DNA of 64,000 bases from Phycisphaerae bacterium (GTDB lineage: Bacteria > Planctomycetota > Phycisphaerae > Sedimentisphaerales > Anaerobacaceae). The translations under genes were made by a program, and so were the position numbers. Of this stretch, positions 27,127-32,484 are shown piece after piece (the stretch's first letter is position 1; every line of letters begins with the position of its first letter). The stretch spans positions 1 through 64,000 of the forward strand of contig JAAYBV010000007.1 in assembly GCA_012744475.1 (NCBI GenBank), written 5' to 3'. The notes beneath the pieces are model-generated. The model saw nothing but the letters and a program-made list of their open reading frames with translations, had not been told where the DNA came from and did no database searches.

Positions 27127-27635
27127 GCGGCGGACTGCTGGACCTGCTCGAACGTCTCGTCGATGCCGGCGTGGACTTCGTCCTGGTGGGCGGCTACGCT
27201 GGCGTCGTGCATGGCTGCACCTACGTCACACAGGACGTCGATATCTGCTGTGACTTCTCGGCAGTCAATCTGCTGGCCTTTCAGGAAGCGCTATCCGGTC
27301 TGCACCCGGTGCATCGAATGACGCCCGACCGAAAGCCTCTGGACCTGACGGCGTCAAACGCTGCTGAGTTCAAGAACCTGTATCTGGACACGGACCTCGG
27401 GCCCATCGACTGCCTCAGCGAGATCCAGGGTCTGGGCGGCTACGATCAGGTCGTGCGGGTCAGCTCGCCAATCGATGTCGAGGGCAGACGGCTCCGCGTC
27501 TTGACCATCGACGCGTTGATCGTCGCGAAGGAGACGATGAATCGCGCGCGTGACAGAGAGGCCGTTCGCCAGCTCAAGGTGGTACGCCGCTTGAGGGAGG
27601 AAGGGGGTCTCACGGATGGTTGCGGACAATCGTAG
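27123..27635 (+). CDS. minimal nucleotidyltransferase-like protein
   Basis: A 170-residue protein of the nucleotidyltransferase fold. LLERLVDAGVDFVLVGGYAG contains the GG of the fold, and TQDVDICCDFS holds the paired Asp that would bind metal (D-x-D). The C-terminal part has LTIDALIVAKETMNRARDRE, as in the DUF6036-type proteins. It may transfer nucleotides to protein or RNA. It starts with GTG overlapping the stop of the upstream gene and lies between two sulfatase genes. A toxin role is possible but unproved. Confidence 0.7.
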   Translation: MSGGLLDLLERLVDAGVDFVLVGGYAGVVHGCTYVTQDVDICCDFSAVNLLAFQEALSGLHPVHRMTPDRKPLDLTASNAAEFKNLYLDTDLGPIDCLSEIQGLGGYDQVVRVSSPIDVEGRRLRVLTIDALIVAKETMNRARDREAVRQLKVVRRLREEGGLTDGCGQS

Positions 27636-27651
27636 GTTGCCGGGAGACGCC

Positions 27652-29040
27652 ATGATCGACAGACGCGGTTTTCTGAAGCTCATCGGCGCCGCCTCACTGG
27701 CAGCGACGAACCTGAGTCGTACCTCCGCACAACAAGGCGCAGCCAGACCCAATGTGCTGGTTATCCTGGTCGACGATCTCGGCTATGGCGATCTGTCCTG
27801 CTACGGCGCAACGGACCTGAAGTCACCGAACATCGACCGGCTCGTCGACAGCGGGATGCGATTCGAGAACTTCTACGCGAACTGCCCGGTCTGCTCGCCG
27901 ACGCGGGCGGCGCTGCTGAGCGGCCGCTACCCCGACCTGGTGGGCGTGCCCGGCGTGATCCGCACGCACGCCAGGGACAACTGGGGCCGCTTATCGCCGG
28001 ACGCGGTCCTGCTGCCGACGATGCTCAAACAGGCGGGCTACCACACCGCCCTGGTCGGCAAGTGGCACCTGGGCTTGACCTCGCCCGACAGGCCCAACGA
28101 GCGGGGCTTCGACCACTTCCACGGCTTCCTCGGCGACATGATGGACGACTACTACACCCACCGTCGGCATGGGATTAACTACATGCGGCGGCAGAACGCC
28201 GAGATCGACCCCGAGGGCCATGCGACCGACCTGTTCACGCAGTGGGCGATCGAGTACCTTCGCGAGCGGGCCAAATCGCAACAGCCGTTCTTCCTGTACC
28301 TGGCCTACAACGCTCCGCACACGCCGATCCAGCCGCCGGACGAGTGGTTGGAGAAGGTCAGGCGGCGACAGCCCGGCATCAGCGACAGGCGGGCGAAGCT
28401 CGTCGCCTTGATCGAGCATCTGGACGCCGGCATCGGCCAAGTCCTCACCGCCCTGAGGGACACCGGCCTCGATGACGAAACGCTGGTGATCTTCACCTCC
28501 GACAATGGCGGCCAACTCGACGCCGGTGCCACGAACGGCCTGTTTCGTGGCGGAAAGCAGGATATGTACGAAGGCGGCATCCGCGTGCCGATGTGCGTCG
28601 TCTGGCCCGGCCGGATCGAGCCGGGATCGCGAAGCGACCGTGTAGCGTTGACGATGGACATCTTCCCCACTGCCTGCGCCGCGGCGGGCGCCCGCGTCGC
28701 CCACGAGATCGACGGCGTCAGCTTCCTGCCGACCCTGCTCGGCGCAACGCAGCCCGATGAAGACCGTTCTCTGTTCTGGGTCCGTCGTGAAGGCGGTCGC
28801 TACGGGGGACGGGCCTACTACGCCGCTCGCTGCGGTGATCTAAAGCTCGTCCAGAACAGCCCGTTCGAGCCGATGGAACTGTATGATCTCGCTGCCGACC
28901 CGAAGGAAGAAAAGCCCCTGGGCAAAGACCATCCGATGTACGGCCGGCTCTTTTCCGCCCTGCGAGACCACATCTCCAAAGCGGGCGTCGCACCTTGGCA
29001 GAGGGCCCCGGCCGGCTCGGATCGGCCTTCTCAGCCCTGA
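27652..29040 (+). CDS. Tat-exported sulfatase (canonical CSPTR)
   Basis: A 462-residue arylsulfatase-type enzyme. The N-terminal DRRGFLKLIGAASLAA is a Tat signal. VILVDDLGYGDLSCYG gives metal ligands, NCPVCSPTRAALLSGRYP carries the formylglycine Cys81, and FTSDNGGQLD is the second metal site. The sequence resembles N-acetylgalactosamine or N-sulfoglucosamine type sulfatases; the substrate is not predictable. The ATG at 27652 follows GGGAG; the frame is open 36 bases upstream over the end of the nucleotidyltransferase gene. Confidence 0.92.
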   Translation: MIDRRGFLKLIGAASLAATNLSRTSAQQGAARPNVLVILVDDLGYGDLSCYGATDLKSPNIDRLVDSGMRFENFYANCPVCSPTRAALLSGRYPDLVGVPGVIRTHARDNWGRLSPDAVLLPTMLKQAGYHTALVGKWHLGLTSPDRPNERGFDHFHGFLGDMMDDYYTHRRHGINYMRRQNAEIDPEGHATDLFTQWAIEYLRERAKSQQPFFLYLAYNAPHTPIQPPDEWLEKVRRRQPGISDRRAKLVALIEHLDAGIGQVLTALRDTGLDDETLVIFTSDNGGQLDAGATNGLFRGGKQDMYEGGIRVPMCVVWPGRIEPGSRSDRVALTMDIFPTACAAAGARVAHEIDGVSFLPTLLGATQPDEDRSLFWVRREGGRYGGRAYYAARCGDLKLVQNSPFEPMELYDLAADPKEEKPLGKDHPMYGRLFSALRDHISKAGVAPWQRAPAGSDRPSQP

Positions 29041-29103
29041 GAGGACCCGTGCTCGGCGCGTGAAGATAGGAAATTTGTGTGCAAAAATAAGTAGTTGCCA
29101 CAA

Positions 29104-29132
29104 TTGACTTTGCTGCGGCACGCCGAGATAAT
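29104..29132 (+). promoter_or_regulatory. sigma-70 promoter of candidate ncRNA
   Basis: TTGACT at 29104-29109 and GATAAT at 29127-29132 with a 17-base spacer. The expected start, 29139-29141, coincides with the first base of a long stem. Confidence 0.6.
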
Positions 29133-29138
29133 GACCTT

Positions 29139-29313
29139 TGTGAAGGCAGGGGATTCTCCTCGCGATTGCTGGCGCGCGCCCGCGTGGGAGCATTCCCACT
29201 GGAGGAGACCGGGTCGATGAAAAGACTGTAGTGCCTCCCCGCTTCACAAACTGGGGGGGCGCTTGCGGCGGCCCGAGGTGGATCCTGCGGAGGAGCCGAG
29301 GCGCCTCTCTTTT
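29139..29313 (+). ncRNA. candidate structured small RNA, about 175 nt
   Basis: No gene fits this stretch, but it has a full transcription-unit layout. TTTGTGAAG at 29137-29145 pairs with CTTCACAAA at 29242-29250. Inside that stem GGGGA pairs with TCCCC, TCTCCTC with GAGGAGA, and GTGGGA with TCCCAC around a GCAT loop. After it GGGGCGC (29256-29262) pairs with GCGCCTC (29301-29307), followed by TCTTTT, a terminator-like end. A promoter lies just before. It does not show the conserved sequences of 6S, tmRNA, SRP or RNase P RNA, or of a riboswitch I know. The layout is seen; the function is open. Confidence 0.5.
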
Positions 29314-29410: not shown

Positions 29411-29439
29411 TTGCCCGGAAGCCCTTTCGCCGTTACAAT
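29411..29439 (+). promoter_or_regulatory. candidate promoter of the 1002-residue protein
   Basis: TTGCCC at 29411-29416 and TACAAT at 29434-29439, 17 bases apart. The start would be near 29446, 30 bases before the ATG at 29476. Confidence 0.5.
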
Positions 29440-29475
29440 AGGTCCGGCTTGACTATACCTGTGAGAGGGACCATT

Positions 29476-32400
29476 ATGCGGCGGAAGTTCCAATTCGTCT
29501 GGGCTGTGACGCTCAGCTTGGCGTGCCTCGCGTACACGCAACCAACCTCGACAGAACAGCTACGCCAGGCCGTTTCCGAATTGCTCGAAGGGCGAATCGC
29601 GATTCTCCGGGTCTATCCGGACCCAGCCAATGATCCGGCGGGATTCGAGAAGGTCCGTGCGCCGATCACGAACCTGGCGATCGGCTCGGTGGCCATCAAA
29701 GCGGCGTATCCGGCCGTCTCCGGCCGGGCGTTCGTCGTGCTCATGGCAACCGACCAGAGGGACGAGGCCGTCGCGACGGCCCTGGGCTCACGCGTCGAAA
29801 AGGGATCGTTCTCGGACAAGCTGACGCTATCGCTCCACCTGGACCCCATTGATCCCAACTGGAATCCGATGTGGACCTTCTCTGATGCCCAAGGCGAACC
29901 CATGCCGGGCGCCGCCATAGAAATATGGACATATACGCCAGACCCTCAGGTGAACATCCTGCTTGCGCGAACGACCCTCGACGAGCGCAGCCAGCTTCCG
30001 CGCCTGTCACCAGCCGACCGATTCTTCTTCCATGTCTCACACCCGAATTACGGTACGGGACGTGTGCAGTTACGCCAGGCAAGAGAAGACCCCTCCGGCG
30101 TCTGGCTGGTCCCCCTGGCGCCGCTTGATTCCCAGGCCGTCGCGTCGTCGATTCAGGGAACCGTTGTCGACACCGAAGGCCGCCTGGTACCTGACGCGCA
30201 GGTCCTGTGCACGAAGGTATTGGGCCCAGATCACAGCCTCATCGAGTCAGAACACGGATTTCTGTTCGGCGCCATCACCAACGAGGAGGGCTGGTTCTCA
30301 CTCTGCGTCCCGATTGTCGGAAAGGACCTCGTGCTTAAGGGACTCCCCGACCCCGGGAGCAGCTATGTCATCGACATTGAGCCGCCTAAGGAACTCAATC
30401 TGCGGCGATATGGATTGGGAAGATCCCGCCACATTCCTGTCGGAACGGAAAGCACCTTCACGCTGACGCCGATAGAGGCCACCAAGGTCTTTCACACGTT
30501 CAGCTTTGAGTACTACGAAGGCCCGGTCACCGATCCTCAGGAGTTGGATAGTATCGAATTGAAACTCTATCGCGATAGCCAGCAGTGCGCACACTTGACT
30601 TACGATCAGCTCAAGGGCGGCCATGCGCTTCCACCAGGGACCCTGCGTGCGACGACAACGCGATGGGGTCGCCGGTTTGGTTTTCAAGACGTTGAGCTGA
30701 GGCTCGACAGCCCCGAGCATGTGGTCATCCATGGGGCACCGCCCGTATTCTATCGAGGTCGGGTTGTCGACGACTCTACGGACGAGCCCGTCCAAGGGGC
30801 AATTGTCTGGGGCGGCTGGCCAGACGCCGAGCAGAAATCGTCCGAGCTAACCTCCGAACGATGGCAAGAACTGCTGGCGATGGTGGCGAAGGAGGCCGAC
30901 GATGATTCTGCCGAGTTGCTGTATCGCGCGAGTGACCGCGTTGCGATGACGGAAGGCGACGGCACCTTCGAAATCCCATTTCTGCTATCGGGGATCAATT
31001 CGCTCATTTACGGTTTCACGGTGGCCAAACCGGGATACAAGCAGGTCGGCATCACGGCGATGATCCCGAGTCTCAACGTGGCCTACATCCATACAATCAG
31101 GCTCGCTCCGACCGGACAGCCGGACTACTTCCCCGTCTTCATGTTCGAGAACGAGGGGGGTTCGCTCGTCGATCCGAATGAGTTCGACAACGCCGATGTC
31201 GTCATCACAGCCATCGGGGGTGGCGGGTCTTCCGTCCCGTTGAGAATCCTCCGTGAAAGACGGCAATTCACGGCGGGCATCTACGGCGTGGACGCCTTTC
31301 GAGACGGGAAGTATTACCAGTATGGACCTGTGGACCTGAGTGTCGCCCGGCCCGAGACTGTGGTCTTTGTGCCCGCGCAGGTATGGCAGAAACAACTTCT
31401 CTGCCGCGGCCGGGTCATCCATGGAGTCACTGGCGAACCTATCTCCGGTGCAGTCGTCATCCACTGTCTGAGGGGGCCCCAGTATGACAGTTCCTCGCTC
31501 CAGCCAAGTCAATGGGAGGCCGTGGAGCGGCTTGGTCCCAACCCTGATCCGAAGAATCCCGCGATGGCGCCTCTGTTTGCTCGATACGATCCCCCCCGAC
31601 CGATTGTCACTGCATGCGCGATTACGGACGAGGACGGATGGTACCATATCACGGTTGAACTGAGCAGACCGGACCCTCCGGACTCACTCCTGGCGATGGC
31701 CCGTGACTTCCTGGACAGTTGGCATACGCTGACGCGGTTGGTCCCTGCGCCGGATGAGCCCATCAGGCACCGTCGTGAATCGCTGGTTCCGGACGCCGAG
31801 GGCATCACACAGCTCGACCCCATAAGTCTCTTCCCGGGCGGCATAGCCGTCCTTCAGCCCATCGCACCGAGTCTCGGCCCGGCTGGAGCCGATGGCACCA
31901 TTGAATTCCGCTGGATCGTCTGCGAGGAACCCAGACCATCATGGGTCGAGCAACTCTGGCCTCCGTTTGGCACCATCGCCGCCACCATGACGTATCGCCA
32001 GAGGTGGCTCCTTCCGAACCTGTCGCAGACCATCTACGTTCCCGCAGGGCTCGACCTGCGCCTGATTGTGGCTCCCCGATCACAGGACTCACATCCACCT
32101 GTTGATTTGGGATATTTCAGGGTCGAGCAGGGACAAGTCATCAAGCTCGGTCGAGTGGAGTTCCCTCCCGGTGTGGAAGTGAGGGTCTGCGTCGTCGATG
32201 AGCAGGGCCACCCGCTCGGCGGCATAACGGTCTTCTGTTTCGACGAAGATGAGATGATGCCGCAACGAAAGCGACCGACGGACGACGCCGGTATGACCAC
32301 GATTCATGTCGCCGCCCATTCGAGGGGCCTGTTTCTGGTCCAGGCTTACGATCAGCAAAGCCGCGAGACGCTCGAAGAAAGCATCCCGTATGAGGTCGGT

Positions 32401-32484
32401 GGCGAAGAGGACGCGGGCCGGCAATTCACGCTGACGGTCTCCCGCGAGATGGCCACGGCGCTGGCCGAGCAGGCGCGGCGGTAG
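29476..32484 (+). CDS. large exported protein with carboxypeptidase-regulatory-like domains
   Basis: A 1002-residue exported protein. The signal peptide is RRKFQFVWAVTLSLACLAYT. The rest is beta-rich with at least four carboxypeptidase-regulatory-like (prealbumin-fold) units: SIQGTVVDTEGRLVPDAQVL, YRGRVVDDSTDEPVQGAIVW, CRGRVIHGVTGEPISGAVVI and VRVCVVDEQGHPLGGITVFC. No catalytic domain is seen. These folds usually hold or display other domains at the cell surface. The ATG at 29476 follows GAGAGGGA. It has its own promoter. The function is unknown. Confidence 0.75.
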   Translation: MRRKFQFVWAVTLSLACLAYTQPTSTEQLRQAVSELLEGRIAILRVYPDPANDPAGFEKVRAPITNLAIGSVAIKAAYPAVSGRAFVVLMATDQRDEAVATALGSRVEKGSFSDKLTLSLHLDPIDPNWNPMWTFSDAQGEPMPGAAIEIWTYTPDPQVNILLARTTLDERSQLPRLSPADRFFFHVSHPNYGTGRVQLRQAREDPSGVWLVPLAPLDSQAVASSIQGTVVDTEGRLVPDAQVLCTKVLGPDHSLIESEHGFLFGAITNEEGWFSLCVPIVGKDLVLKGLPDPGSSYVIDIEPPKELNLRRYGLGRSRHIPVGTESTFTLTPIEATKVFHTFSFEYYEGPVTDPQELDSIELKLYRDSQQCAHLTYDQLKGGHALPPGTLRATTTRWGRRFGFQDVELRLDSPEHVVIHGAPPVFYRGRVVDDSTDEPVQGAIVWGGWPDAEQKSSELTSERWQELLAMVAKEADDDSAELLYRASDRVAMTEGDGTFEIPFLLSGINSLIYGFTVAKPGYKQVGITAMIPSLNVAYIHTIRLAPTGQPDYFPVFMFENEGGSLVDPNEFDNADVVITAIGGGGSSVPLRILRERRQFTAGIYGVDAFRDGKYYQYGPVDLSVARPETVVFVPAQVWQKQLLCRGRVIHGVTGEPISGAVVIHCLRGPQYDSSSLQPSQWEAVERLGPNPDPKNPAMAPLFARYDPPRPIVTACAITDEDGWYHITVELSRPDPPDSLLAMARDFLDSWHTLTRLVPAPDEPIRHRRESLVPDAEGITQLDPISLFPGGIAVLQPIAPSLGPAGADGTIEFRWIVCEEPRPSWVEQLWPPFGTIAATMTYRQRWLLPNLSQTIYVPAGLDLRLIVAPRSQDSHPPVDLGYFRVEQGQVIKLGRVEFPPGVEVRVCVVDEQGHPLGGITVFCFDEDEMMPQRKRPTDDAGMTTIHVAAHSRGLFLVQAYDQQSRETLEESIPYEVGGEEDAGRQFTLTVSREMATALAEQARR

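Follow-up and report, generated by a model that had tools for sequence, protein, structure and literature searches.

Does the region between the sulfatase gene at 27616-29040 (PF00884) and the ORF at 29476-32484 harbor a gene for a small RNA, and what might be the function of its product? The window, i.e. the whole stretch of 64,000 nucleotides analyzed here, represents contig C23 (G000:C23) of a 5.7-Mb genome from the Sedimentisphaerales (class Phycisphaerae, Planctomycetota). The original prediction had placed an orphan transcription unit in this gap, made up of a good promoter, a structured RNA and a terminator-like hairpin, at a site where no gene fits. The latter statement was upheld, as the antisense ORF of 233 amino acids did not reveal any Pfam match. 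A search for a phage origin of the locus gave no match. The downstream ORF encodes a secreted-type protein of 1002 amino acids with CarboxypepD_reg domains. It lies on the same strand as the RNA, begins approximately 165 bases beyond the 3' hairpin and possesses a promoter-like site of its own (29411-29439). The features of the locus are compiled in Table 1.

Table 1. Features of the small RNA locus in the window
Feature	Position	Strand	Remarks
Small RNA, ~175 nt	29138..29312	+	kept in L005 and L006; fold z = -2.1
Promoter element AATAAGTAGTTGCCACAATTGAC	29086..29108	+	20 sites in own genome; activator-like site fused to -35 box
-35 hexamer TTGACT	29104..29109	+	10 of 12 matches together with the -10 hexamer
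-10 hexamer GATAAT	29127..29132	+	17-base spacer; -10 box present at 85 of 118 element sites
Closing stem, 5' strand TTTGTGAAG	29137..29145	+	conserved core GTGAAG, 29140-29145
Closing stem, 3' strand CTTCACAAA	29242..29250	+	conserved core CTTCAC, 29242-29247
Hairpin motif GGAGGAGACCGGGTCGATGAAAAG...GCCTCCC	29201..29239	+	orthologues have GGAGGCCGGGTTGATGAA; motif also in sibling sRNAs
3' hairpin module R3, G-rich stem	29251..29312	+	79.1 bits to model R3; two-sided changes

Comparison with known RNA classes

The original prediction had found no known class to fit, and the proposed covariance search led to the same result. With Rfam 15, including the models of tmRNA, SRP RNA, RNase P RNA, riboswitches and sRNAs, the window gave no match at the gathering score. 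The sole match at relaxed thresholds was a chance miRNA hit (23.1 bits at a cut-off of 54, E = 0.05). 6S RNA (RF00013), which has a similar length and a long closing stem like the RNA of the window, was rejected since its model did not match in the window and the 6S RNA of this genome resides at another locus (G000:C13:46286-46470, 63.1 bits).

The promoter and the genes behind it

The promoter of the unit was confirmed. Its two hexamers show 10 out of 12 consensus matches, and the -35 box is part of a 23-base element, AATACGTAGTTNCCACAATTGAC, for which a pattern search permitting at most two mismatches yielded 20 sites genome-wide versus none for the reversed pattern. All six genomes of the genus contain 13 to 24 sites. 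Within the taxonomic family, 23 of the 89 genomes have one site or more. Over 118 sites, which include orthologues and are thus not all independent, conservation is confined to the 23-base block, the A bases next to it and weak -10 positions. A -10 box (at least four of six matches to TATAAT) follows the element at 85 of the 118 sites, compared to 16 to 31 after shuffling, mostly at a spacing of 16 to 18 bases. The TACGTA half of the element presumably resembles binding sites of LuxR/FixJ-type regulators. Judged by its sequence, this is a recurring promoter that looks activator-dependent.

Many sites of the element precede ORFs whose first residues, such as MKKTASLLLLVLGLSSTALG and MKKILFIAVVLMLVSTVAFA, resemble signal peptides. 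Besides sRNAs and such exported proteins, the units behind the element in this genome include a prepilin-like gene and a glycosyltransferase-like gene. The units often occur in tandem, about 320-440 bases apart, and at least one member of each pair is an sRNA gene (L028, 1141/1500; L013, 1337/1653; L016, 1179/1503; L049, 221/542; L062, 1061/1500). By eye, the convergent genes beside two of these sRNAs (L028 and L062) seem to end like PEP-CTERM proteins.

The RNA and its orthologues

By BLAST, the whole RNA was recovered from two congeners (G004, 81%; G005, 76%). In both of them promoter and RNA are intact, and the RNA is located downstream of the same sulfatase gene as in the window. There, the RNA is followed by a convergent gene for an Nramp transporter, and the 3-kb ORF seen in the window does not occur. 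Since the downstream neighbor differs, this RNA does not constitute a leader tied to one fixed gene. In the window, the region 29449-32484 with the 3-kb secreted-type ORF separates the RNA from the Nramp gene; this difference to the two congeners goes back to either an insertion or a loss. G002 and G003 did not give an RNA match, and their Nramp homologues are more distant (56-58%). The locus of G001 is not readable, as a contig end interrupts the Nramp gene.

Besides the promoter, GTGAAG/CTTCAC and GGGGATTYYC, the three-way alignment retains the GGGTYGATGAARAG loop together with GCCTCCC; the 3' hairpin is almost unchanged. The closing stem of 9 bp that had been predicted exists in the window, but only its 6-bp core is retained in the two orthologues, while the outer three T-A pairs are not. 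Likewise, the terminator-like hairpin with TCTTTT proved to be strongly conserved as a hairpin, whereas the T-run was not (CTCTCTTGCC and CTCTCTCGCC in the two orthologues), and a strict terminator scan at the RNA found none. The boundaries of the RNA were deduced from the -10 box (start at ~29138) and from the last hairpin, which probably forms the end of the transcript.

The folding energy is moderately better than that of dinucleotide shuffles (z = -2.1 and -2.2), a score that would not be convincing on its own. The 5' domain, for which the whole RNA provides three orthologues only, allows two competing folds, because GGAGG can pair either with the upstream TCTCCTC or with the downstream CCTCC.

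The 3' hairpin module R3

Model R3 was built from 11 sequences, the copy of the window among them. Further copies were found in G002, G000:C89, G001, G004, G005 and the genus g32 with E-values of 5e-12 to 1e-7. Each genome of the genus contains two to three copies and each of three genomes of another genus a single one; R3 is limited to these two genera of the family. Its stem contains two copies of YTGCGG-N4/5-CCGAGG on opposite strands. Within 18 distinct sequences, 96.8% of the cells are paired, and eight pairs exhibit two-sided changes versus 3.3 in shuffles, a value reached by none of 500 shuffles; the alignment was fitted to the structure, and slid controls gave at most 4. The compensatory changes to be looked for according to the original prediction are hence present in the 3' hairpin across its paralogues. 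Selection acts on the structure of this hairpin.

All six genomes of the genus also contain short RNAs consisting of the R3 hairpin only. Two R3 groups, the C12-type and the C89-type, represent orthologous sets of such RNAs, whose genes in the genome studied (G000:C12:13510-13572, L223, and G000:C89:29237-29300, L239) have orthologues across much of the genus. The C12-type ends in a T-run, and the C89-type has the -10-like sequence TATGGTTTA directly before the hairpin. In the C12-type, CUUGCGG-UGGA-CCGAGG and CCUGCGGA-NGA-UCCGAGG reside on opposite strands, so that each strand could also form a small hairpin of its own. A second hairpin behind the sibling RNA L017 is similar to R3 (11.3 bits, E = 0.9), which is suggestive only.

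A family of sibling RNAs

About 18 sites of the element are followed by the motif GG(T/C)GA(T/C)GAA, 90-119 bases past the -35 box. Most of these loci are free-standing RNAs of ~115 nt ending with GGGGAGRC...GTCTCCC-TTTT. Thirteen of the siblings, from which model R1 was built, could be aligned and have the stems CUGC.GUGC/GGCAC..GCAG and GGGGAGRC/GUCUCCC in common, followed by a T-run. Within the family, R1 detected relatives in 47 of the 89 genomes, belonging to 25 out of 45 genera, with E-values from 4e-11 to weaker ones in more distant genera. With the broader model R2, two families of the order were found to have members, as was a single genome of the class outside the order, and its matches in a phylum sample of 294 genomes are confined to the same order; the E-values of the models are rough, and weak matches (E ~1e-3 and above) in the family and phylum searches may be due to chance. 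When 33 members were aligned by sequence only, 96% of the cells paired, compared to 35-58% in slid versions, and two-sided changes were observed at eight pairs (32 cells) versus 4.8 (11 cells) in shuffles. Rfam families did not match any of the members searched.

The genome studied possesses three unannotated copies of approximately 115-130 nt (C86:3991-4113, L028; C50:95490-95607, L025; C25:135763-135891, L217). At least two loop types exist in the family, GGGTGAYGAA versus GGCCYACAAC together with a CCGCGGTA loop. A third sibling type contains GGTCAGGGTGATGAACGA within a long GGCGGTGGGCACCG hairpin (G000:C10:78393-78415, minus strand, L020; G001, L041). A small peptide starting at the conserved ATG/GTG of the loop was rejected, as the frame that follows is not conserved among the members and L017 has no ATG. 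Interpreting UGAUGA/CUGA of the siblings as box C/D-like elements was also given up, since the RNA of the window is devoid of CUGA in the matching place.

The 5' domain of the RNA in the window (L001) carries the hairpin GGAGGC-CGGGTTGATGAA...GCCTCCC, which corresponds to the profile of the 3' hairpin of the siblings and is situated at a similar distance from the promoter. Out of 1000 shuffles each, two reached the profile score of L001 and none those of the orthologues L005 and L006. The full-length covariance model of the siblings did not give a significant match to L001 (E = 2.3); the values for L005 and L006 were 0.31 and 0.0067, the latter locally only. Thus, the hairpin is a shared motif and does not indicate membership in R1/R2. 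The RNA resembles this family in its promoter, in the GGAG-RC...GAUGAA hairpin motif and in forming its own unit, but its 5' domain, enclosed by a single outer stem, is a different one, and the R3 hairpin is present in addition. While a unit composed of promoter and RNA is indeed kept in the orthologues, the term orphan does not apply, because the RNA has siblings under the same promoter and modules that are common to other sRNA groups.

Discussion

The region 29138-29312 is very probably a real sRNA gene. Like trans-acting sRNAs, it shows an independent promoter, a 3' end (deduced from the hairpin) and no tie to a neighboring gene. We favor an sRNA of an export regulon that regulates in trans or is bound by a protein; that the RNA would act in trans within the regulon of the element is quite possible. 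According to this model, the regulator of the promoter would activate several sibling sRNAs along with proteins that are exported or located at the surface, and the RNA of the window would then act in trans. Contacts could be made through the conserved, purine-rich GGGUYGAUGAARAG loop of its 5' domain. The compact 3' hairpin would end and protect the transcript and probably bind a partner common to the other RNAs carrying the same hairpin. The most likely outcome would be a post-transcriptional tuning of envelope or secretion genes. Hfq was searched for in the genome and not found, so that help in base pairing would have to come from another source. We regard this explanation as a whole, a free-standing sRNA acting in trans on envelope or secretion genes, as rather probable.

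MicA and RybB of the sigma-E regulon as well as OmrA and OmrB are sibling trans-acting sRNAs of envelope regulons. The RNA described here is similar to them in that several short RNAs would stand under one regulator of surface or exported proteins; an own promoter and a GC-rich 3' hairpin are further common features. It differs by residing in a genome in which Hfq was not found, by the missing Rfam match and by an extra 3' module common to RNAs outside the regulon.

The position of the next gene, on the same strand and close behind the hairpin, might suggest a cis-acting leader, attenuator or riboswitch controlling read-through into the ORF near 29476. We consider this very unlikely, as promoter and RNA are kept in congeners that have the convergent Nramp gene and no 3-kb ORF, a separate promoter-like site belongs to the downstream ORF and no riboswitch family matches. 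A response-regulator-driven CsrA sponge like CsrB or RsmY would fit a genome that encodes CsrA and in which Hfq was not found, the LuxR/FixJ-like half of the element and the seven GGA triplets within 175 nt. This number is, however, no enrichment (mean of dinucleotide shuffles 5.6, p = 0.30), which sets the RNA apart from CsrB and RsmY and leaves the sponge unsupported; ANGGA does not occur in the RNA, and the GGA in the R3 module is not conserved across R3 members. A sponge is thus improbable.

Another conceivable function is that of a structural or housekeeping ribonucleoprotein RNA, whose R3 core would be bound by a dedicated protein, the 5' domain being accessory. The near-invariant borders of the internal loop, the two-fold arranged motifs of R3, the hairpin-only RNAs in all genomes of the genus and the one copy each in three genomes of a second genus speak for this role. 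But R3 does not extend beyond two genera of the family, sits behind quite different 5' domains and varies in its loop sequence between types, and we judge the role to be rather unlikely. A GC-rich repeat without function, folding merely by composition, would be in line with the energy z-score of only -2.1. It is contradicted by the covariation; promoter and RNA are conserved and both modules recur, which makes such a repeat hardly credible.

Small RNAs of planctomycetes are almost uncharted. For the PVC group as a whole, a survey from 2022 listed no more than eight sRNA families of Rfam (PMC9029176), and our literature search on sRNAs in Sedimentisphaerales found nothing in the papers covered. 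The favored reading, a regulator or protein-bound sRNA of an export regulon, may tentatively be extended to a new RNA system of the Sedimentisphaerales, in which one activator would control exported proteins and modular sibling sRNAs, with an RNA-binding partner of the R3 module and without a recognizable Hfq. The order-wide GGGAGRC/GAUGAA hairpin and the two-fold arranged R3 hairpin would be exchangeable modules of this system. Starting from an unannotated gap, the analysis led to an RNA family in about half of the sampled genomes of one taxonomic family, to a hairpin module that covaries and recurs in several RNAs, and to a defined promoter tying these RNAs to genes of exported proteins. It provides concrete sequences to be traced by RNA-seq and an initial access to the post-transcriptional regulation of these sediment bacteria. 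As far as can be read from the DNA, the conserved structured-RNA gene points to an unstudied layer of RNA control in a poorly known bacterial group.
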